DNA of 64,000 bases from assembly GCA_029570205.1 (NCBI GenBank), contig JAKQSI010000111.1:1-64000 (forward strand), in the 5' to 3' direction. This document shows positions 21,747-34,541 of this stretch, in pieces. The translations under genes were made by a program, and so were the position numbers. Source of the stretch: Candidatus Omnitrophota bacterium. Lineage in GTDB: Bacteria > Hinthialibacterota > Hinthialibacteria > Hinthialibacterales > JAKPRU01. The stretch's first letter is position 1; the number at the start of each line of letters is the position of its first letter. The notes beneath the pieces were generated by a model, which worked only from the letters and a program-made list of their open reading frames with translations, was not told the origin of the DNA and made no database searches.

Positions 21747-22358
21747 TCACGAACTGCCTGTGCGGGGCGGCCAAATCCCCATACCTTTTTCACCAAAGAC
21801 CTGAGCTTCATAAGTGTAAATCTCCGTCTCCGGGTTTTTCCAGGCATTTCTGGACAAACCGGCTTTTTGGCAGGTCTGTTCCAGAAAGGTCTGACGGTCC
21901 CAGCCCTGGCCTGCGCCGACCTGCGGCAACAAGGTTCCATGCCGTTGACCTCCGAAAGGCGATTTCCCCACGATATACAAACCATGGCGGCCTACCTGGA
22001 TCTCCTCGATATTTTGGACGCGGTGCATCGGTGTCAAGACGGATATCTCGATGTCCAGTTCCGGGATTTCATCAGACGATACCGGCAGAAAACGGCTGTC
22101 ATTAAGCGCCGCCTCTCGTGCCATGACGGCAACCAATTCCAGAAGCGGGATGTCATCGGGTTCAAACCTTCCCAGGCAACCCCGAAGTTCTTCCTGACGG
22201 TGAAGTGTAACAAAAACACCGCATTTTCTGGCCAGATTTCCGAGAGGCTCCGCGAATTCACAGATCGTGCTGCTTACGGCTACCCGGACCGCATCTCGGG
22301 CAACTCTCAGCAACTGCCGCCGCTCCGACTCGGTCAAGAACGAACTTTTCTCCGACAT
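21747..22358 (-). CDS. amrA: AmmeMemoRadiSam system protein A (AMMECR1 domain)
   Basis: This 203-residue protein belongs to the AMMECR1 family, marked by the invariant LRGCLG motif and the downstream SPFGGQRHGTLLPQV and GWDRQTFLEQ segments. The biochemical role of the family is not established. The ORF track starts at TTG 22379, but ATG 22358 with a GGGGGAAG site is preferred. It lies just downstream of the Memo-family gene, a recurrent pairing in bacteria and archaea. The radical SAM partner of this three-part system is not in the window. Confidence 0.9.
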   Translation of the reverse strand: MSEKSSFLTESERRQLLRVARDAVRVAVSSTICEFAEPLGNLARKCGVFVTLHRQEELRGCLGRFEPDDIPLLELVAVMAREAALNDSRFLPVSSDEIPELDIEISVLTPMHRVQNIEEIQVGRHGLYIVGKSPFGGQRHGTLLPQVGAGQGWDRQTFLEQTCQKAGLSRNAWKNPETEIYTYEAQVFGEKGMGIWPPRTGSS

Positions 22359-22385
22359 TGCTTTTCTTCCCCCTTTCAAGAGAGA

Positions 22386-23288
22386 TCATTCTGCCGGCGT
22401 TGAATCTTGCTTCCGCCGTGAGCGATATACGGCCAAAGAACCGTAGCCCACTACCTCATCTCTGGAACCGTAGGTGGAATCCCCGGAATTGCGGTAGGCC
22501 AGGATTTCGGCGCGATCCGCCCCCAGGTTCCCGGCAGCACGCAAAGCCACCAGGACCGCGCCGGCGCCACAAAGAACACAGCGCAAACCCCGTACCGGTT
22601 CACGCGCCAATTCCGCCAGACGCTGTCGAATATGCTCTTCATCCAGAGTGACAAGCGCATGGAGAGCCTGTCGATCAATTCGAACCGCATCTTCGTACGG
22701 CGGGTAGTGAGTCATGTCCGAGGATGCAATCAGGACGGCCTTCTTTTCAGGGTGATTCTGCAGAACGGACGCAATCCCATCCCCGATCCGTTTGCCCAAT
22801 TCCGGGTCTTGCCCGCCGATCAGGATTTCGACGAAACGCGCGCCCGGGAGAGCAGTTTGAATAAATGGAATTTGCATTTCGGCGGAGTTCTCCGGGCGGC
22901 CGAAAGTCCCTGTATGAGCAGCCTGGATGTACGGCAAATCGGGAACGGCCTGCCGCAACTCCGTTACCAGATCGCGGTCGATATCAATTCGCCCCAGGGG
23001 TGTTTCGCAGGCTTCCATGTCCAGGATCGAGGCTTCCGCCGTACCACTATGGCAGACTGCGAGAATAATCGCCGTGTCGATTCCTCTGCCCTGCAAGGCA
23101 CGATACGAATATCCCGCTACTGGCCCGGAAAAGGTATAACCTGCATGAGGCACTAGAACCGCAAGAATCTCATCGGAGGTCTCGGGCGCCTTTGCTTGAT
23201 AAAGATAGGACCGTATTTCGGTTTGCAAAGCCCGTGGATTACCGGGATACCATTGACCCGCAAGAGCGGCCTGTTTGATGGACGGCAT
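22386..23288 (-). CDS. amrB: AmmeMemoRadiSam system protein B (Memo family)
   Basis: This 300-residue protein has the Memo fold, related to extradiol dioxygenases. VPHAGYTFSGPVAGYSY, the AHTGTFGRPENSAEMQIPF segment and SSDMTHYPPY carry the conserved histidines of the putative metal site, and GLRCVLCGAG carries the conserved cysteine near the C-terminus. It ends 27 nt upstream of the amrA start. Function in bacteria is unknown; by analogy with human MEMO1 a redox-active metal site is possible. Confidence 0.92.
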   Translation of the reverse strand: MPSIKQAALAGQWYPGNPRALQTEIRSYLYQAKAPETSDEILAVLVPHAGYTFSGPVAGYSYRALQGRGIDTAIILAVCHSGTAEASILDMEACETPLGRIDIDRDLVTELRQAVPDLPYIQAAHTGTFGRPENSAEMQIPFIQTALPGARFVEILIGGQDPELGKRIGDGIASVLQNHPEKKAVLIASSDMTHYPPYEDAVRIDRQALHALVTLDEEHIRQRLAELAREPVRGLRCVLCGAGAVLVALRAAGNLGADRAEILAYRNSGDSTYGSRDEVVGYGSLAVYRSRRKQDSTPAE

Positions 23289-23299
23289 GTGTTGTCATC

Positions 23300-23415
23300 T
23301 CCCTTCGGGGGCGAGACACCCCCGCAAAATGTCCAAGCTCCTTTCGGGGGCTAGAGGCCCCCGCTCCTGTATTACGATCCGTCATTCCGGCGAAAGCCGC
23401 AATCCGGGGTATGAC
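23300..23415. repeat. Cluster of small palindromic repeats
   Basis: Three hairpins lie between divergent genes: CGGGGGC/CCCCCG at 23306-23324, CGGGGGC/GCCCCCG at 23345-23363, and the widespread repeat GTCATTCCGGCGAAAGCC at 23381-23405 with stem CCGGC, loop GAAA. A relative of the last one recurs at 58986-59010. No gene is in this interval; the ORF-track start at 23275 merely reads through it. Confidence 0.75.
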
Positions 23416-23496
23416 GAGCAAAGCGCCATATTGAGCGATCTGCCGTTGTGTATGATACCAGCTGGAAGACCGAAAGAAAGAAGGAGACAACCCGGC

Positions 23497-24195
23497 GTGC
23501 CGTATTCCGTCCGTCTCATCAACAGGGATTATTCATGGTTGCGGGACCTCCCCTGGGAGAACGATCCGGCGGCATGGACATCGGCAGGGGCACAGGTTAT
23601 CAAGAAGTCCAAATCCCGGTTTGTCTTTTTCTGGGAAGGAGAATCGCCGGTTTTTATTAAGCGTTATTTGTCGCGTCGTTGGACAACGCAGTGGTTGTCC
23701 TGGCTGGTAGGGGTCAAATCGGCACGCGAGGCAAGAATCCTTCTAAAACTGCGCGGGTGTGGCATCCCGACGCCGGAACCCTATGGGGTGGTCGCGCCGT
23801 GGTTCCCGCTGGGGCCGGTTTCGAATTACCTGATTCTGGAGCCGTTGCGGGGCCGGAACCTTCATACGGTCATCCGGGAGTCACCGGAGAAGATGGAACC
23901 GGTCGCGCAGAAACTCGGTTCTCTTCTTGCGCAAATGCACGCGGTTGGATTTTTCCACCACGATGCGAACCTGCACAATTTTCTCCTGGATGAATCCGAA
24001 GACACACTGTACGCAATTGATGTGGATGGCGGCTGGTTTCCGCTCCCTCTGCTGATGTATCACCGCCGGAAGAACGTGTATCAAATCTTGCGGTCGGGCC
24101 GGGGATGTTGCACAAACAACGAATGGGAAGCGCGTTTTTGTCGGGCCTATGCGGAATCGGCTGGAGTCCCTCCGGAGGCCATTGCGGCGCTGTAG
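23497..24195 (+). CDS. WaaP/Kdo-kinase-like lipopolysaccharide kinase
   Basis: This is a 232-residue protein-kinase-fold enzyme that probably phosphorylates a sugar of the LPS core. The lysine in PVFIKRYL, the catalytic loop HHDANLHNFLLD (HxDxxxxN) and the metal-binding IDVDGG (in place of DFG) are visible. The start is taken as GTG 23497 with AAGGAG 10 nt upstream, because the longer ORF would translate the repeat cluster. The 3' end overlaps the convergent ligase/GT4 gene by 49 nt. It opens the envelope-glycan locus. Confidence 0.85.
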   Translation: MPYSVRLINRDYSWLRDLPWENDPAAWTSAGAQVIKKSKSRFVFFWEGESPVFIKRYLSRRWTTQWLSWLVGVKSAREARILLKLRGCGIPTPEPYGVVAPWFPLGPVSNYLILEPLRGRNLHTVIRESPEKMEPVAQKLGSLLAQMHAVGFFHHDANLHNFLLDESEDTLYAIDVDGGWFPLPLLMYHRRKNVYQILRSGRGCCTNNEWEARFCRAYAESAGVPPEAIAAL

Positions 24196-26678
24196 AACTG
24201 CTCGAAGAGATCGGCGATCCGTTCGGGTGTATGTTGCCGTTCCGCCCGCAGCCGTCCGTGCCGCCCCATTTCCCGCAATCGCTCGGGAAATGCAATCAGG
24301 TCAAGAATATCCCGCGCCAGTGCGTCTGGTCGTTCATCACGACAGATCACACCGTTTACTCCATCCTCAATCAGGTCTACCAGAGCGCCGATCGGCGAAA
24401 CCAGGCTGGGTATTCCGACAGCCATTGCCTCCAATACGGTTCGGCAGGCGCCGTCGGAACCGGGACGCAGATAAATCAACAGGTCCATCGCCGCAACATG
24501 CTGGGGGAAATCATCCGTATGATATCCGCCGAAAATGACGGAATCGGTCAGGCCCCGCTCGATCACCAGGCGACGAATTTGCTCCTCATTTTCACCGCGT
24601 CCGATCAGAAGGAGACGCGCATCCGGACGGGTTCGAACCACATGCGCCCAAGCTTCTACAACCAGATCATGGCGACGGTACGGTTGAAACCGGGAAATCA
24701 TCCCGGCCACGGGAGCCTCTGTGGGAATGTTGAATCGGCGGCGCACGGATTCACTGTCCAATCCGGGATGAAACCGTTCGATATCCACAAGACCTGGGAG
24801 AACCCAGCAGGCTTCTTGTCCGATCATCCGCTCATGGATCATTTGGTCGCGTGTCGCCGAGGAGACGCAGAGGACCCCTTTGACACGCCTGTAAATGTAA
24901 TCGGAGAGCGGATCTCTCGGCGGCGGCTGATCTTTAAAGATACTCGCCACAAGAGCCGCGCCTGCCGGGCGGGAGGCACAGGCGAACGCGGCAAGCGCCA
25001 GATCGTGGGGAAAATGGGCGTGGATGATATCCCACTCGCCGCTGCGTACGAATTTGCGTAACGTACGAATATCGGAGAGGTTATCGAACAGGTTCAAATG
25101 CCGATTCAGGCGAATCTGCGGCACAAGAAGCAATCCCTGCTTCTCAGCCAGAGCGCCTAATCCTCGTTGCCCCTGCTTTTCGCGACTGGTGAAAACCGGG
25201 CCTCGACTGGACAAACGAAACCGTGGCGGTCCCACGGGAGAGGCGAATCCGATCTGATGTCCCCGCTTTGCCAATAGCGAACAAACGGTCAGCACCATTC
25301 CGGCGGGACCGGTGTAACGGTCGTTCCCATATAGGTGCAGAATCCTGAGCGGGCGTGAGGGGATGGCAATTCTGGGAGGCGAGACATACGGTTTCTCTTC
25401 CGGGAACAGACGTTGATCGGTCTCAACCAGACGGGGAAAATCCGATTCCGTCCTCAGGCGTTCCAGCATCCCCAGGAACAGCACAAGAGCAGGAGTCACA
25501 TTTCGCGTGAACAGCAGCGTGTCAAAGCAACAGAAAACCGTAAATCCTACGGCAGCCCCGAAAAAGTAAGCGTGTTCTCCATATCGGCCCCACGTGCCGG
25601 AGGGCGAGCGCGGCGGAACAAATCGCACAAAGCGAACAGCCAGCCAAATCAGGGCCAGAAGTCCGGGAGGACCGTAAATCAGCCAGACATGAAAAAAAAG
25701 GTTGTGTGCATGGTTGATTTCCGGGTACGGGGGCCGGTCCGCACGAAAGGATTGCAGGTATGACACACGATCCTTCACCGCATTCCCGCCGCCCCAGCCG
25801 GACGCGGGAAGATGCGGGACAGCATAACGCATCATCTGGTCCCAAATCACCAGGCGGGATTGCGGACGGGAGCCGGAGATATCCAGGAAGGTTTCCTTCA
25901 TCCGCCCCATGGCCGGTCCGACAAAGAAAGGCGCGACAAGTCCCGCGATCAACAGCAGCGGCAAGAGATGCATCAGCGCCCGACGTCCACCCAGCCGCCA
26001 CATACAGATAAGAGAAACAAACAGCCCCAGGTAAGCCGCTCGTGAAAACGTTATCAGAACCGCCAGGAAAATCAGCGCCGCCACACAGAATATGCCCACG
26101 TGAATCCACCACTCTCTCGAAAGACGGGCAATCAGTAGAAGCATCGGCAATCCAAGCAGGGCATAAGCCGCCAGCAGATTGGGATGGCCGAATGTGCCCT
26201 CTGCGCGGAATTGCCCGCTCACAATCCATTCAAACAAAACCACCATCCCCAGGTATAAATTCCCGGCGACAAAAGCGCCTGTAACCCACCGTGTGGCACG
26301 TTCGTGAAACGGAAAATTGACCAGGGCACAATAAAAAGCCATACACAGAATCAATTTCAGCGCATCTTTGAGGGACTCGTAGCCGTATCCCGGCGACACA
26401 CCGGAAAAAAGCGAGACAAGCGCCAGCCCTGCCAATGGAGCAAGGAAAATCCCCGGACGCAGGCGCAAGTCGCTTCCGAGAAACCAGAACACAAACCACG
26501 TTATTAGAAACGGCGTGAAAAGCTTGTAGGCATTCCCGCCAAACGAGACTGACTGCCCGAACAACTCGAAGGCAATTCGCCCGGCGGGTATGGTGAACAG
26601 AATAACTCCCAGCTGAATCCACAAGAGAATCCCCAGCCAGAAGCGGAAGTCATTTCGACGATACCCGGCCATTTGCAT
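24147..26678 (-). CDS. Fusion of O-antigen ligase/polymerase-like membrane domain with GT4 glycosyltransferase
   Basis: This 843-residue protein has about ten to twelve membrane segments in residues 1-430, with the Wzy_C-type region SRAAYLGLF and SRLVIWDQMM and a large loop ending in EINHAHNLFFHVWLIYGPPGL, typical of O-antigen ligases (WaaL) and polymerases. After a short linker, residues 465-843 form a GT4 enzyme: HLYGNDRYTGPAGMVLT, IIHAHFPHDLA, SRFQPYRRHDLVVEAW, and the donor site around GACRTVLEAMAVGIPSLV. Joining sugar transfer to polymer ligation in one chain is unusual. The ATG has a weak AGG site. The 3' end overlaps the kinase gene on the other strand. Confidence 0.85.
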   Translation of the reverse strand: MQMAGYRRNDFRFWLGILLWIQLGVILFTIPAGRIAFELFGQSVSFGGNAYKLFTPFLITWFVFWFLGSDLRLRPGIFLAPLAGLALVSLFSGVSPGYGYESLKDALKLILCMAFYCALVNFPFHERATRWVTGAFVAGNLYLGMVVLFEWIVSGQFRAEGTFGHPNLLAAYALLGLPMLLLIARLSREWWIHVGIFCVAALIFLAVLITFSRAAYLGLFVSLICMWRLGGRRALMHLLPLLLIAGLVAPFFVGPAMGRMKETFLDISGSRPQSRLVIWDQMMRYAVPHLPASGWGGGNAVKDRVSYLQSFRADRPPYPEINHAHNLFFHVWLIYGPPGLLALIWLAVRFVRFVPPRSPSGTWGRYGEHAYFFGAAVGFTVFCCFDTLLFTRNVTPALVLFLGMLERLRTESDFPRLVETDQRLFPEEKPYVSPPRIAIPSRPLRILHLYGNDRYTGPAGMVLTVCSLLAKRGHQIGFASPVGPPRFRLSSRGPVFTSREKQGQRGLGALAEKQGLLLVPQIRLNRHLNLFDNLSDIRTLRKFVRSGEWDIIHAHFPHDLALAAFACASRPAGAALVASIFKDQPPPRDPLSDYIYRRVKGVLCVSSATRDQMIHERMIGQEACWVLPGLVDIERFHPGLDSESVRRRFNIPTEAPVAGMISRFQPYRRHDLVVEAWAHVVRTRPDARLLLIGRGENEEQIRRLVIERGLTDSVIFGGYHTDDFPQHVAAMDLLIYLRPGSDGACRTVLEAMAVGIPSLVSPIGALVDLIEDGVNGVICRDERPDALARDILDLIAFPERLREMGRHGRLRAERQHTPERIADLFEQFYSAAMASGGTPADSA

Positions 26679-26792: not shown

Positions 26793-27938
26793 ATGGATTC
26801 AATGCCTCTTCCCATCCTTCAGATCTCAAGCAGCAGCTCCATGACCGGAGAAGCCGGGCATGTTTTCAGCCTGTCCAGGGGGCTGATCGAACGGGGGCAC
26901 CGGGTCCTGATCGGCTGTCGAAGCATCAAGAGAGGGAAGCCGATTGATCGGATGCTGCAAGAGGCGAGAAAGGTGGAAGGCGCGGAGGTTTTCCCGCTCA
27001 ATTTAGTGAAAGGGATTTCGTTGCGATACGACCTGGCAGATCTGGGAACGCTGGACCGCCTGTGCAGAGACAATCCTGAATTGCGCATCATTCACGCTCA
27101 CCGATCCAAGGAACACTGGCTGGCCATGCTGCTCCGGCGACGGTATCCATATCTTCGGGTGGTTCGAACCCGGCATGTCACCACACGTATCCGACCGCAC
27201 ATTCTGAACCGCCGGCTATATCAAAATACCGACGCGGTAATCGCTACCTCAACGGCCATTCGAGATGGACTGGCCGCATCCGGGATTCTTCCGGCGGAGA
27301 GTATTTCCGTACTGCATGGTGGGGTTGACGCGAAACGGTTCCATCCGGGGATATCCGGGGAACCGTTCCGACAAGAACTCGGCGTAGACATGGATGTTCC
27401 GTTGGTAGTGGCCGTCGGGCATCTGGATCGGGTCAAGGGGTATGATGTGCTGGTCCGCGCATTTCGTAAGGTTCACCGGGCATTCCCCGCCGCTCGCCTG
27501 GTCATTGTCGGAGAAGAGCATGAGGTTCGGCGGGAGGATTTGATGAACCTTGCTGCCGAGCTGGACATTGCAGACCGGGCGCTTTTGCCCGGGAGGAGGG
27601 AGGATATCCCGGTAATCATGGCGGCGAGTACGGTGGGGGTGATTTCCTCGGTCGGATCGGAGGGAAACAGCCGTGTAGCTCTGGAGTTCATGGCAACAGG
27701 AAAACCTGTGGTGTCCACTACGGTAGGATGTCTTCCTGATTTGATTCGAGACAATGAGACAGGGATATTGGTCGCTCCTGGGGATTCTGATGCACCGGCA
27801 GAAGGGATACTCAAGATTTTGGAGGCGCCGGAGATGGGGGTGGCATTCGGCAAAGCCGGACGAAAACTTGTCGAAACAACCTATACTGAGGAGATTGCCG
27901 CTGAGAGGGTGGAGGGGATTTACCTGGGGCTTTTTTGA
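26793..27938 (+). CDS. GT4-family glycosyltransferase
   Basis: This 381-residue GT-B enzyme has the acceptor-domain loop SSSSMTGEAGHVFSLSRGL, IIHAHRSKEHW, the donor-domain GHLDRVKGYDVLVRAF and the ENxxxE-like SEGNSRVALEFMATGKPVV, which contacts the nucleotide sugar. It probably builds an LPS or surface glycan. The acceptor and sugar cannot be named. An AGGG site lies before ATG 26793, and the gene is divergent from the ligase/GT4 fusion. Confidence 0.9.
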   Translation: MDSMPLPILQISSSSSMTGEAGHVFSLSRGLIERGHRVLIGCRSIKRGKPIDRMLQEARKVEGAEVFPLNLVKGISLRYDLADLGTLDRLCRDNPELRIIHAHRSKEHWLAMLLRRRYPYLRVVRTRHVTTRIRPHILNRRLYQNTDAVIATSTAIRDGLAASGILPAESISVLHGGVDAKRFHPGISGEPFRQELGVDMDVPLVVAVGHLDRVKGYDVLVRAFRKVHRAFPAARLVIVGEEHEVRREDLMNLAAELDIADRALLPGRREDIPVIMAASTVGVISSVGSEGNSRVALEFMATGKPVVSTTVGCLPDLIRDNETGILVAPGDSDAPAEGILKILEAPEMGVAFGKAGRKLVETTYTEEIAAERVEGIYLGLF

Positions 27939-29633: not shown

Positions 29634-31199
29634 TTGCATTTGTCTTTCGGTGACATTCTTCTTTTTGCATTCGAAGACATCGTGAATGCGCCGGCGCTTT
29701 ATGCTGTTTTGGCGCCGTGCCTGGTGTCTTTTTCCCGCTCTATTCCATCCCTCGGTGCGGCGATATCGGGTTTGGGGATCGGGCTTCTAGTCGGGTCTCT
29801 CCTGCCGGGAATCGTTGAGAATCGTTGGCCGGCATCGGCAGCGGTTCTTATTTTGTTTGCGCTTTGCCTGAGGCCGGTTCGGGAGTGGATGCGGAGCCGA
29901 AGTCGGCTGACAGAAGTTGATGCCGTGCTCATGGTTGGTTCTGTGCTGGTTCTCATTTTTTCCCTCATCTGCGTTTTTTACAGTTGGACTACGGGACAGG
30001 AGTCCTGGGGAATCCGGCCCGTTGTGGCCGTGATTGTTCTCATGGCCTGCTATCGTCGGCTTCTTCCCGCCTTTCTGCAGGGAAAAGGAAACCGCATCGC
30101 GAAACGCATTGCGTTAGCGGGAGCGGTGATTCTTTGTGCGCGGGGAATGGTCTGGTATGGGCAGTATCACACGCTTTCCTCGGCAAGATCGCCCCGCGCC
30201 GATTTATTTGTAAATATCCACTGTCTGGAGGCAACCCAAAAGGCCTTGGAGCATTTGGGGAACAACAGGATGCCGGAAGCTGTCACTGCGTTGCGCGGCT
30301 GTCTCATCGGCGGGGGGCCGGAAACGGTTTCCGCCCGGGTGGCCGGGTGGTCCGGTCTGGAACCGACAGCGCTGCCTCTCATGCTGGCCTTTGGGGGACA
30401 TGTCCCTGTGCATCGTCGGACTCACGTCTATTCCTCCGGATGGGATGGCGCGCACGGGCGTATTCTGGCGCTGGGTGAGAGAGGGAGACTGTGGGCGTTG
30501 ACCCGGTCCGGAGCGCAAGACCTTGGGGCGCCGCTGAAAGAGGCGATCGCCCTGACTCTCAGCGCGGATGGATCGCAAATCGGCCTGATCTCGGAAAAGG
30601 GGAGAGTGTTCATCACAGACCAACAGGGGAAAGAATTGTGGAAATTATGGCTTCCTGAATCAACCTATCGAGATATAGCAGGAACCGAATCGCCAAACCG
30701 ATTCCTCGCGCTTCGGGCGGACGGCGCGGTTTACAATGTTACTCATCAAGGCTCCAGGCTGCTTGAGGGATATCCCACCTGGAAAGATACTGAACCCGCG
30801 GTGTCGATTGTCTCAACCCCTGACGGAAAAGGTCATTATGTTCTGGATCGATTCGGGGGTGTTCATCCGAGAGGAGAAACCCCCATCCGGTATGAGGACC
30901 TGAAGGGGCAATCGGAAAGCGGTCATTATTGGCCGGAACAAGACACAGCGCGCGCGATCCTTCTGGCCTCGCCGAATGTTCTGATATATGTGGATCGATT
31001 CGGAGGCTTGCACAGTGTTGTCAAAAGTGACGGAACAGTTTCCTATCGGGGGCACGATTATCCGCCACTGAATGAGCCGGTTGTTGTGGATGTTCTCGGT
31101 GGGATTGTTCCCGGTATGTTTCACATTGTTTGCGAGGATGGGCGGATTATGCCCATCCCGGACTATGGGTGGCTGATTCCGAGGGGGGAACATGAGTGA
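29634..31199 (+). CDS. Membrane protein with C-terminal propeller-like repeats
   Basis: This 521-residue protein has five or six membrane segments in the first 185 residues. A soluble part follows with an SEKGRVFITDQQGKE-type repeat. The last 250 residues hold at least five repeats of the form xxVLDRFGGVHxxG (VLDRFGGVHPRG, VDRFGGLHSV, ALRADGAVYNV), which suggests a beta-propeller facing the periplasm. The same repeat style appears in the cohesin-like protein at 49110. The start is uncertain: TTG 29634 abuts a hairpin, and the next option is GTG 29682. It overlaps the downstream GT4 gene by 8 nt, so the two are probably coupled. Function unknown. Confidence 0.65.
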   Translation: MHLSFGDILLFAFEDIVNAPALYAVLAPCLVSFSRSIPSLGAAISGLGIGLLVGSLLPGIVENRWPASAAVLILFALCLRPVREWMRSRSRLTEVDAVLMVGSVLVLIFSLICVFYSWTTGQESWGIRPVVAVIVLMACYRRLLPAFLQGKGNRIAKRIALAGAVILCARGMVWYGQYHTLSSARSPRADLFVNIHCLEATQKALEHLGNNRMPEAVTALRGCLIGGGPETVSARVAGWSGLEPTALPLMLAFGGHVPVHRRTHVYSSGWDGAHGRILALGERGRLWALTRSGAQDLGAPLKEAIALTLSADGSQIGLISEKGRVFITDQQGKELWKLWLPESTYRDIAGTESPNRFLALRADGAVYNVTHQGSRLLEGYPTWKDTEPAVSIVSTPDGKGHYVLDRFGGVHPRGETPIRYEDLKGQSESGHYWPEQDTARAILLASPNVLIYVDRFGGLHSVVKSDGTVSYRGHDYPPLNEPVVVDVLGGIVPGMFHIVCEDGRIMPIPDYGWLIPRGEHE

Positions 31200-32301
31200 A
31201 CAGGCCCCCCTGCGTGTCTGGCATGTGGACTCCGGGAAACGTCATGGAGGCGGACAGGTCCAGATTTCCTATCTGCTGAACGGCCTGGTCAGTCGGGGAG
31301 TTGCCTGCACATTGATTTGTCCGAAAGAATCGCCGATTCCGGGCCTCGGCATTCCACGGGAAGTCGAAGTGATCCACCTGAACGTTCGGTCGGAATGGGA
31401 CGTTCCGTCGATCTGGAAGATGCGGAAGCTGGTAAGGGCTTTCCAGCCGGACATCCTTCATGCGCATGATGCCAAGGCGCACACCGTTTGCCTGCTGGCG
31501 CGAACCGGAAGGCAGAAAGTGATCGTGCATCGACGGGTATCCTTTCCCATCCATCGGCATATCCTGACAAAATGGAAATATGGCGCAGGCGTGGATCAAT
31601 ATATTGCTGTCGCAGAATGTGTTCGGGACCGCCTGATTGGGATCGGAGCGCCGAAAGAGAATGTGACGGTGATCCACAGCGCAGTGGACCTGTCCCGATT
31701 TGGAAGTACCGGGCGGGATACCACCGTGAGGGAAGAATTGGGCTTGACGGAAGACCGGAAGATCATCGGCACGGTTGGGCGACTCACGCGGGAGAAACGG
31801 TATGATTGGCTGCTGGACACCCTGAAGCCGGTTCTGGAAAGCCATCCGACATGTTGCCTGGTCCTCGTGGGGGACGGGCCGGAACGGGGACCGTTGGAGA
31901 GTCGGGCCGAAAGGTTGGGGATTCGGGATCAGGTGATTTTTACGGGCCACCGGAAGGATGTGCCCCGGCTCCTGGCGGCCTTTGATGTCTATGTGCTTTG
32001 TTCGGAATCGGAGGGGTATCCGGTGAGTCTGGCGGAAGCAATGGCGGCAGGGTGTGCCGTAGTGAGCGCCAATGTGGGCGGGGTTTCAGAAATTGTGACG
32101 TCAGGAGAGAACGGAATAGTGGTCCTCCCGAACGATGCAATCTCTCTGAGGGATGCGGTGGGAGATCTGTTGCAAAATAAACAACTGCGAATGGAATTGG
32201 GCCAAGCCGGTCGAGAATCCGCGATAAAAAAAATCGGTACGGAAGCAATAGTCGAAGCGGTTCTGAAGCTGTATAATCAGGTTCATATTATGGGACGGTG
32301 A
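31192..32301 (+). CDS. GT4-family glycosyltransferase
   Basis: This 369-residue GT-B enzyme has the glycine-rich acceptor loop GKRHGGGQVQISYLLNGL, DILHAHDAKAH, GTVGRLTREKRYDWLL and the donor-site SESEGYPVSLAEAMAAGCAVV (EX7E). It starts inside the 3' end of the membrane propeller gene, and the GT9 gene follows after 15 nt, so it is part of a co-transcribed run through the methyltransferase gene. A role in LPS core or O-antigen assembly is likely. Confidence 0.92.
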   Translation: MSEQAPLRVWHVDSGKRHGGGQVQISYLLNGLVSRGVACTLICPKESPIPGLGIPREVEVIHLNVRSEWDVPSIWKMRKLVRAFQPDILHAHDAKAHTVCLLARTGRQKVIVHRRVSFPIHRHILTKWKYGAGVDQYIAVAECVRDRLIGIGAPKENVTVIHSAVDLSRFGSTGRDTTVREELGLTEDRKIIGTVGRLTREKRYDWLLDTLKPVLESHPTCCLVLVGDGPERGPLESRAERLGIRDQVIFTGHRKDVPRLLAAFDVYVLCSESEGYPVSLAEAMAAGCAVVSANVGGVSEIVTSGENGIVVLPNDAISLRDAVGDLLQNKQLRMELGQAGRESAIKKIGTEAIVEAVLKLYNQVHIMGR

Positions 32302-32316
32302 GGCGATTGAATTGCG

Positions 32317-33438
32317 ATGACAAAGCCAAAGCGATTGAAAATCGTGGGGAACTTTTCATCCGTTTTAATAATCCGCCTGAATGACATCGGCGAAGTAGTG
32401 ATGACCCTTCCGTGCCTGGATGCCGTGCGCCATGCGCTTCCGGGGGCACGGATCGGGTACCTGGTGTCTCCCCCGAGCCATGAACTGCTTTTGCACGACA
32501 GCCGAGTCGACCAAATCTTTGTTTTTGAGAAAAAACTCTGGCGGGATCGCCCATCCCTGCAGGGCATCAAGCAGCTGGGGAAACTTCTGCTGGACCTTCA
32601 TCGCGAACGTTTCGACCTCGCTATCGATCTTCATAATAATCCATCCACGCATTGGCTGGCCTATGTGTCCGGCGCGAGATATCGAGTTTCATTGGATTCA
32701 AAATACCGATCTCGTTACCTGATGACCTGGAAGGCCGCTCCGTGCGCAGGCTGGGAACAGATGCACAATATCGAACGGCATTTTCATGTTCTTACATCGG
32801 TAGGAATACCGACCCGAGGCGCGGAATATCGCTTTGCGCTGGATCCCGAATCGAGAATGCGTGTAAAGACCCAGCTGGATCAGGAATTGGAACCGGGGAA
32901 ACCTGTGGTGGTTCTGCAACCGGGGGCCGGTCTGCCGGAACGATGCTGGCCTGTCCAACGGTTCGGGGAACTGGCCGCTCGATTGGTGGAGGAAGCCGGT
33001 GCGCAGATTGTCGTCCATTGCGGTCCGGGCGAAGACCACCTGGGTGAGCGAATCCGTCAGTCGGTACCGCAGCCGGTTTTGATTGCGAAGCGCCTCACAT
33101 TACAGGAGTTGGCGGGGCTGTTGGATCTTTGTGACCTGCTTATCTCGAACGATTCGGGACCGATGCACCTGGCCGCCGCTCTGGGGAAACCGGTGGTCGC
33201 GGTATTCGGGCCGACACATCCGCAGCGTTCGGGTCCCTATCAGGCCCGTTCCGTGGCGGTCAGCAATTACGTGGAATGCTCACCCTGCGGCATTCAGAAT
33301 CTGTCCTGCATTCACCGGAAATGTCTGACCGATATCTCGGCGGATGAGGTCTATGATGCGGCGGTGCGCGTCCTGAGCCGGGAGCGGGACCGGCCACAGG
33401 AGGAATCCTCCGGAATCGCCTCCGCCGGAGCCTCATGA
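32317..33438 (+). CDS. GT9-family heptosyltransferase-like enzyme
   Basis: This 373-residue protein resembles LPS heptosyltransferases (WaaC/WaaF/WaaQ type). It shows IIRLNDIGEVVMTLP at the N-terminus, LQPGAGLPERCWPVQRF opening the donor domain, and SNDSGPMHLAAALGKPVVAVFGPTHP, the conserved sugar-nucleotide site. Its presence points to an LPS-like outer leaflet. Whether the sugar is a heptose is not shown. It overlaps the next GT4 gene by 4 nt. Confidence 0.92.
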   Translation: MTKPKRLKIVGNFSSVLIIRLNDIGEVVMTLPCLDAVRHALPGARIGYLVSPPSHELLLHDSRVDQIFVFEKKLWRDRPSLQGIKQLGKLLLDLHRERFDLAIDLHNNPSTHWLAYVSGARYRVSLDSKYRSRYLMTWKAAPCAGWEQMHNIERHFHVLTSVGIPTRGAEYRFALDPESRMRVKTQLDQELEPGKPVVVLQPGAGLPERCWPVQRFGELAARLVEEAGAQIVVHCGPGEDHLGERIRQSVPQPVLIAKRLTLQELAGLLDLCDLLISNDSGPMHLAAALGKPVVAVFGPTHPQRSGPYQARSVAVSNYVECSPCGIQNLSCIHRKCLTDISADEVYDAAVRVLSRERDRPQEESSGIASAGAS

Positions 33439-34541
33439 TTCGCCCCATCCTTCTGATCCATCGCGCCGGCTGGGGAGGAGCCGAGCAGACTCTCCTCGAT
33501 TTGATTGAAGGTCTTCCAACCGATCAATGGCAGGTAACGGCGGCCGTGCCGGATGGACCCTTCTCCGAAAAACTCGCGGGACTCCAAACAAACATTGAGT
33601 CGATCCGGTTTCCTGCATGGCGCAAAATGCGGGACCTGATACGAAATCGGTTGTGCCTTCGCTCAATCACAAGACTGGCGGGGCGGGTTTCTGCACGAGT
33701 GGTAATCGCCGGGGATTTTCGCACCGCGCCTTATGCCGTTCAGGCAGCGGTCAACCGGGGGTGTCCCAGCCTGGTGTTCATACAAGACTCGACTATCCGG
33801 CAACGGCATATCAAAGCCTATCGAGTTCATCGAGCGGACCGGGTGCTTTGCCCCTCCAACCGTCAACTTCAACATGCCATTTTGGCTGGTGTTGATCCGC
33901 CCAGGGCAATTCTTTTGCCGGTCGGAATCGATACAAAGCGATTCAATCCCCATGTTGATGGATCGCGGTTGCGAAATCAGTGGATGCCTTGTCAGGACGC
34001 CGTTCTGGTGGGATGTATCGGGAGCATTTCGCCCCTGAAAGGTCAGGACCTTCTGCTGGAAGCCATGCTGCCCCTGATGCGAGAGGATAAGAGAATCGGG
34101 TTGATTTTCGCCGGATCGGGAAAGAACTCATTTATCGAGAATCTGAAAGGGCGGGCATCGGAGTTTCTCTCCTCGAACAGGATTCGTTTTGTGGATTGGA
34201 TGGAGGATATTGGGGCGGCGTATGCGGCGGTGGATGTGGTAGCGGTTCCCTCCCGCTCGGAGTCGTTTTCGCGTGTGACAGCGGAGGCGATGGCCTGCGG
34301 AAAGGCGGTAGTCGCGACACAAACCGGCGCAGTGGAGGAATTGTTTGACCGGGATCGGTGCGGGATATCTGTTCCCGTCGGCGATATATCGGCGCTGCGG
34401 GAATCGCTAACGCACCTGGTGAACGACGCCGAAATGCGAATGCGACTTAGGCACGCCGCGTCCGAACAGATCGTCCACCATTTTTCTCTGGCGAAATCTC
34501 AACAACAGTTCCGGGAAGTATTACAGAGCGTGTGTGATTGA
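33435..34541 (+). CDS. GT4-family glycosyltransferase
   Basis: This is a 368-residue GT-B enzyme with an acceptor loop RAGWGGAEQTLLDLIEGL, a donor domain GSISPLKGQDLLLEAM, and SRSESFSRVTAEAMACGKAVV as the EX7E region. Its ATG lies in the ATGA overlap with the GT9 gene. It is the last glycosyltransferase in the run and overlaps or abuts the SpoU methyltransferase gene. The acceptor is unknown. Confidence 0.9.
   Translation: MIRPILLIHRAGWGGAEQTLLDLIEGLPTDQWQVTAAVPDGPFSEKLAGLQTNIESIRFPAWRKMRDLIRNRLCLRSITRLAGRVSARVVIAGDFRTAPYAVQAAVNRGCPSLVFIQDSTIRQRHIKAYRVHRADRVLCPSNRQLQHAILAGVDPPRAILLPVGIDTKRFNPHVDGSRLRNQWMPCQDAVLVGCIGSISPLKGQDLLLEAMLPLMREDKRIGLIFAGSGKNSFIENLKGRASEFLSSNRIRFVDWMEDIGAAYAAVDVVAVPSRSESFSRVTAEAMACGKAVVATQTGAVEELFDRDRCGISVPVGDISALRESLTHLVNDAEMRMRLRHAASEQIVHHFSLAKSQQQFREVLQSVCD

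Follow-up and report, generated by a model that had tools for sequence, protein, structure and literature searches.

A gene joining an O-antigen ligase-type membrane domain to a GT4 glycosyltransferase in Candidatus Omnitrophota, a candidate WadA-like enzyme of LPS assembly

The window, a 64,000-nucleotide stretch of DNA that was analysed as a whole, carries on its reverse strand a gene (24147..26678) for an 843-residue protein that joins an O-antigen ligase-type domain, a linker and a GT4 glycosyltransferase domain, an arrangement kept in three congeners. This fusion of a Wzy_C/WaaL-type domain with a GT4 is real, and we consider it reasonably likely that the protein is a bifunctional LPS-assembly enzyme working like WadA of Brucella. 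The reading draws on (i) a profile and fold match to WaaL that includes all three catalytic residues, with His rather than Asp or Glu at the acceptor position; (ii) a single open frame preserved in three congeners, both halves being under purifying selection; (iii) a GT4 clade recurrently tied to Wzy_C, in six adjacent gene pairs and a reverse fusion; (iv) GT9 and Kdo/WaaP-type kinase genes nearby, with KdtA and LpxC in the genome; and (v) an N-in/C-in topology that would make the GT4 cytoplasmic, WadA being a demonstrated precedent. Counting against it, the best structural matches of the GT4 half include BshA and HepE besides WaaG, KdtA is encoded on a contig other than that of the fusion, and each genome of the phylum (a sample of 14, G000-G013) has about 8-12 Wzy_C paralogues, any of which could be the ligase.

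The open reading frame begins with ATG and contains no internal stop codon. Pfam recognised both halves above its curated cut-offs: Wzy_C (PF04932) at residues 199-344 (E 9e-16), Glyco_transf_4 (PF13439) at residues 461-635 and Glycos_transf_1 (PF00534) at residues 643-809 (E 8e-29), which bears out the single chain of ligase-type membrane enzyme and GT4 put forward in the original prediction. An integral membrane domain with 12 transmembrane (TM) helices (residues 1-413; 25440..26678), identified as Wzy_C/WaaL-type by Pfam, AF2 and a profile and fold match to 7TPG, is followed by a 30-residue linker (residues 414-443; 25350..25439), which was modelled at low AF2 confidence and is of equal length in the three congeners, and then by a complete GT4 domain of GT-B fold (residues 444-835; 24174..25349), defined by Pfam, AF2 and PDB matches; all three lie on the reverse strand.

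The gene cluster around the fusion looks like one for LPS core assembly, to which the heptosyltransferase, WaaP/Kdo-type kinase and GT4 neighbours point together with genomic KdtA and LpxC. The Kdo/WaaP-type kinase gene (23275..24195, forward strand; PF06293, 35 bits against a cut-off of 21) is convergent with the fusion gene; at their 3' ends the two share 49 bp (24147-24195), an overlap present in all three congeners. The remaining neighbours, likewise on the forward strand and assigned by Pfam, comprise a separate, divergently transcribed GT4 paralogue (26793..27938), which the tree places in a different GT4 clade, two further GT4s (31192..32301 and 33435..34541) and a GT9 heptosyltransferase-type protein (32317..33438; PF01075, E 1e-43). 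KdtA and LpxC were found in four of the four genomes tested, which therefore probably make Kdo-containing LPS. The same stretch includes a gene for a membrane protein with no Pfam match (29634..31199, forward strand), which is homologous to a gene product of about 600 residues in family f2 of the same phylum (hhalign probability 98.7, E 3.5e-16). Genes of this membrane protein family lie directly 3' of a stand-alone Wzy gene in all six f2 genomes (L057, L058, L059, L060, L061 and L062), and in the window's genus a homologue is still encoded close to the fusion; the family is a possible ligase partner.

A first AF2 model, which covered the whole protein and used a mixed alignment, was confident for the GT4 half and poor for the membrane half; a second, of residues 1-430 alone with a Wzy-only alignment, reached a pLDDT of 85.5 and a pTM of 0.87. 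This second model has twelve helices (helices 8 and 9 are continuous in it and were divided by hand to reach that number), a long loop at residues 269-326 and both termini predicted inside. Searched with Foldseek, it gave 7TPG, the WaaL of Cupriavidus metallidurans, as the only match with E below 0.001 (7tpg_B, E 1.6e-6, probability 1.00), and TM-scores of 0.55-0.58 show for the modelled structure a fold common to WaaL but considerably diverged. When a profile built from 31 relatives was compared with solved structures, only 7TPG (E 5e-19) and the oligosaccharyltransferase structure 9RMK (E 1.8e-11) matched. In the alignment to 7TPG, R213 (26040..26042), R275 (25854..25856) and H325 (25704..25706) coincide exactly with R191, R265 and H313, the first two of which are the diphosphate-binding arginines of WaaL and the third its proposed acceptor-activating His (PMC10920833). 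Both R275 and H325 lie in the large loop between TM9 and TM10 (residues 269-326; 25701..25874), assigned to the periplasm from the AF2 helices and loop charges, and the motif HAHNLFFHVWL is at residue 323. The likeness to WaaL (GT121) thus extends to the 12 helices, the long periplasmic loop, the three residues and the fold; unlike the fusion protein, WaaL is single-domain, without a GT4, and the two are about 18% identical.

The identity of the acceptor residue also bears on whether the membrane half might be a Wzy-type polymerase of O-antigen or exopolysaccharide, with the GT4 adding the last sugar of an Und-PP-linked repeat unit ahead of its flipping and polymerisation. Most polymerase families in WaaL's clan (GT-C1 BP-Pol) have Asp or Glu where the ligase has His, GT127 being the named exception (PMC10920833), and the fusion protein has His at this position (H325). 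The solved structures matched are a ligase and an oligosaccharyltransferase only, the genes around the fusion are of core type (a kinase and a GT9), and a non-exhaustive Pfam examination of the neighbours revealed neither a Wzx nor a Wzz homologue. Set against these points, the Pfam family is common to ligases and polymerases, many GT4s act on Und-PP-linked units, and several GT4 genes lie near the fusion, so that we regard a polymerase as unlikely rather than implausible. We think it improbable that the membrane half is a protein O-oligosaccharyltransferase (PglL/TfpW-like) acting on periplasmic proteins, with the GT4 helping to build the glycan: WaaL gives the better match by profile and fold, the neighbours are of LPS-core type, and the match to TIGR03097 (exosortase-associated 'O-glycosylation ligase'), which together with that to 9RMK would favor this activity, is weak, at 45.5 bits far under the cut-off of 188. 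To our knowledge, sequence alone cannot safely divide Wzy_C proteins into ligases, polymerases and O-oligosaccharyltransferases; judged by its aligned residues and its predicted fold, the membrane half appears ligase-like.

In the full-chain AF2 model the GT4 half is a confident GT-B domain, with pLDDT mostly above 90. Its PDB matches, namely BshA, HepE, PimB' and WaaG, are all GT4 enzymes, the WaaG structure 8B62 being one among many GT4s matched. In the tree it falls within a GT4 clade of 25 rows (SH-aLRT 100), apart from the window's other GT4s, and most clade members carry DG[ST]CRxxLEAMA, for which the window sequence is DGACRTVLEAMA. Within the clade signature DG[AST]CRxxxE, the fusion has a D-x7-E motif (DGACRTVLE, residues 742-750; 24429..24455) in place of E-x7-E, a variant common to most of the clade. 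With the WaaG-type core glycosyltransferases it shares the GT-B fold, the retaining GT4 motifs and an LPS-core context; it differs from WaaG in matching BshA and HepE best, in its D-x7-E motif and in being fused to a ligase-type domain. In several phyla or families, GT9 or WaaP-type kinase genes adjoin the genes of this clade; in G037 and G327, for instance, the neighbours are WaaP-type kinases (Pfam-confirmed for G037).

With twelve helices and both termini inside, the GT4 is predicted to be cytoplasmic and the ligase loop periplasmic, in agreement with the compartments originally proposed. In the WadA-like mechanism that we favor, the C-terminal GT4 would add a core sugar, probably the terminal one, to lipid A-core on the cytoplasmic side, and lipid A-core would be flipped by a separate transporter. 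R213 and R275 would then hold undecaprenyl diphosphate while H325 activates the acceptor, and, on the periplasmic side, the N-terminal WaaL-type domain would attach the polymer to this sugar. The substrates, an activity as ligase and not as polymerase, and the role of the GT4 as maker of the ligase's acceptor are points that we infer. The suggestion that the fusion channels a lipid-linked glycan across compartments found no support, because the chain contains no flippase part; flippases would still be required to move its substrates.

The nearest known enzyme is WadA, a GT25 + GT121 bimodular O-antigen ligase of Brucella and other Rhizobiales; in Brucella the GT25 module occupies residues 1-266 and the ligase residues 267-703, and the protein adds the last core glucose and ligates O-antigen (PMC9938171, PMC10920833). 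The fusion protein is like WadA in combining, in a single chain and in an LPS context, a cytoplasmic glycosyltransferase (with a putative core role) and a 12-helix O-antigen ligase-type domain. Unlike WadA, it uses a GT4 of GT-B fold and not a GT25, for which a Pfam search of the fusion protein gave no match; its glycosyltransferase is C-terminal and not N-terminal; and it comes from a different phylum and a separate origin, with a proposed function where that of WadA is demonstrated. By analogy, the fusion protein most likely works as WadA does, yet it is not a WadA.

A search with the GT4 domain covered 386 genomes, of which those of the window's genus and G048, a genome of another phylum, are the only ones known to have it fused to Wzy_C, a result that rests on matches and frame lengths, with domain content covering most long frames. 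The original prediction, which called the combination uncommon, is right as to its rarity, but WadA provides a precedent. Long Wzy_C proteins as such (700-1000 residues) are common in these genomes, and many of the Wzy_C proteins in G000-G013 lie in frames of 600-1000 residues. A GT4 was present in none of the 27 other long Wzy_C frames in which the profile re-found the Wzy_C domain, which speaks against GT4 + Wzy_C fusion as a widespread architecture, and in 14 further regions, where the profile missed Wzy_C, the GT4 frames were short or, in one, a double GT4. We expect the extra part of the other long Wzy_C proteins to be TPR.

Homologues of the two halves are always fused in the genus; outside it they are separate, non-adjacent genes in most genomes, and the concern that they might always be encoded as two genes is further dispelled by a fusion in reverse order elsewhere. 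Within the same phylum, family f2 and G011 encode the Wzy half on its own (415-443 residues), and in the gene order examined no GT4 of the fusion's clade lies next to it. G048, by comparison, encodes an 805-residue protein with the GT4 first and Wzy_C second (L063:6676-9093, reverse strand), and in its six phylum mates GT4 and Wzy_C follow one another in matching order as adjacent or overlapping genes, with a GT9 gene upstream in five of the six (the contig of the remaining one, G064, ends there). Other members of the GT4 clade have no Wzy_C gene alongside. The GT4 halves of the two fusions fall in one clade and their Wzy halves in different lineages; a single origin shared with the reverse-order fusion of G048 is ruled out for the Wzy halves (AU p 2.8e-6). 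Given Wzy halves of unlike lineage and opposite domain orders, the trees indicate that the same kind of GT4 was joined to two Wzy_C lineages in at least two independent fusions.

This recurrence, with the two genes side by side in six genomes from another phylum and fused in the opposite order in a further one, and the same coupling in Rhizobiales WadA with another GT family, make it very improbable that two enzymes of one pathway were merely joined by a chance stop/start deletion, without functional coupling. Such a history would suit the separate and unlinked state of the two halves in most genomes outside the genus, and the linker, which resembles a flexible tether and evolves fast (pairwise dN among the congeners of 0.24-0.54 versus 0.01-0.07 in the flanks). 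Both halves are under strong purifying selection: between pairs of the three congeners, dN/dS is 0.06-0.07 over the Wzy domain and 0.09-0.17 over the GT4 domain.

Tentatively, we suggest that fusion of a ligase to the enzyme for its acceptor sugar may be a recurrent convergent solution with three or more origins (GT25-based WadA, ligase-GT4 in the window's genus, and GT4-ligase in another phylum, there out of a conserved pair of neighbouring genes); in that case the DG[AST]CR clade would mark, in various uncultured phyla, the step that supplies the acceptor sugar for LPS ligation. Beyond WadA, the two fusions with a different GT family, which come from other phyla and show both domain orders, suggest repeated selection for coupling acceptor completion to ligation, and they offer a testable guess as to which of some ten Wzy_C paralogues serves these uncultured bacteria as LPS ligase. 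The main interest of the fusion lies in this convergence.

The junction itself, which the original prediction placed near residue 430, is in one frame in all three genomes of the genus sample (the window's, G001 and G002), with neither stop nor frameshift in the linker. The whole fusion is present at 88% identity in the separately assembled G001 (JAKPYU010000485.1); in G002 the junction lies within a single contig at 94% identity, that contig ending later, at residue 602, and being overlapped by a second from residue 485 of the fusion. Although the window's source is a draft assembly of 131 contigs, the identical frame in three separately assembled congeners, at 88-96% identity over the junction, rules out a missed stop and leaves the chance of an assembly or sequencing artefact negligible. 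Production of the GT4 alone from an internal start was also considered and rejected: codons 405 to 460 of the fusion gene include no ATG, GTG or TTG, so the GT4 is not obviously produced on its own. A search of a plasmid collection returned no record covering 80% of the fusion.

Two minor observations concern the surrounding sequence. Within the linker (25350-25439), dS is also raised, at 1.1-1.8 versus 0.2-0.7 in the flanks, from few sites, perhaps through recombination or a local hotspot. At 21747-23288, a Memo/AmmeMemoRadiSam system B gene adjoins an open reading frame that by eye resembles AMMECR1, a familiar gene pairing.
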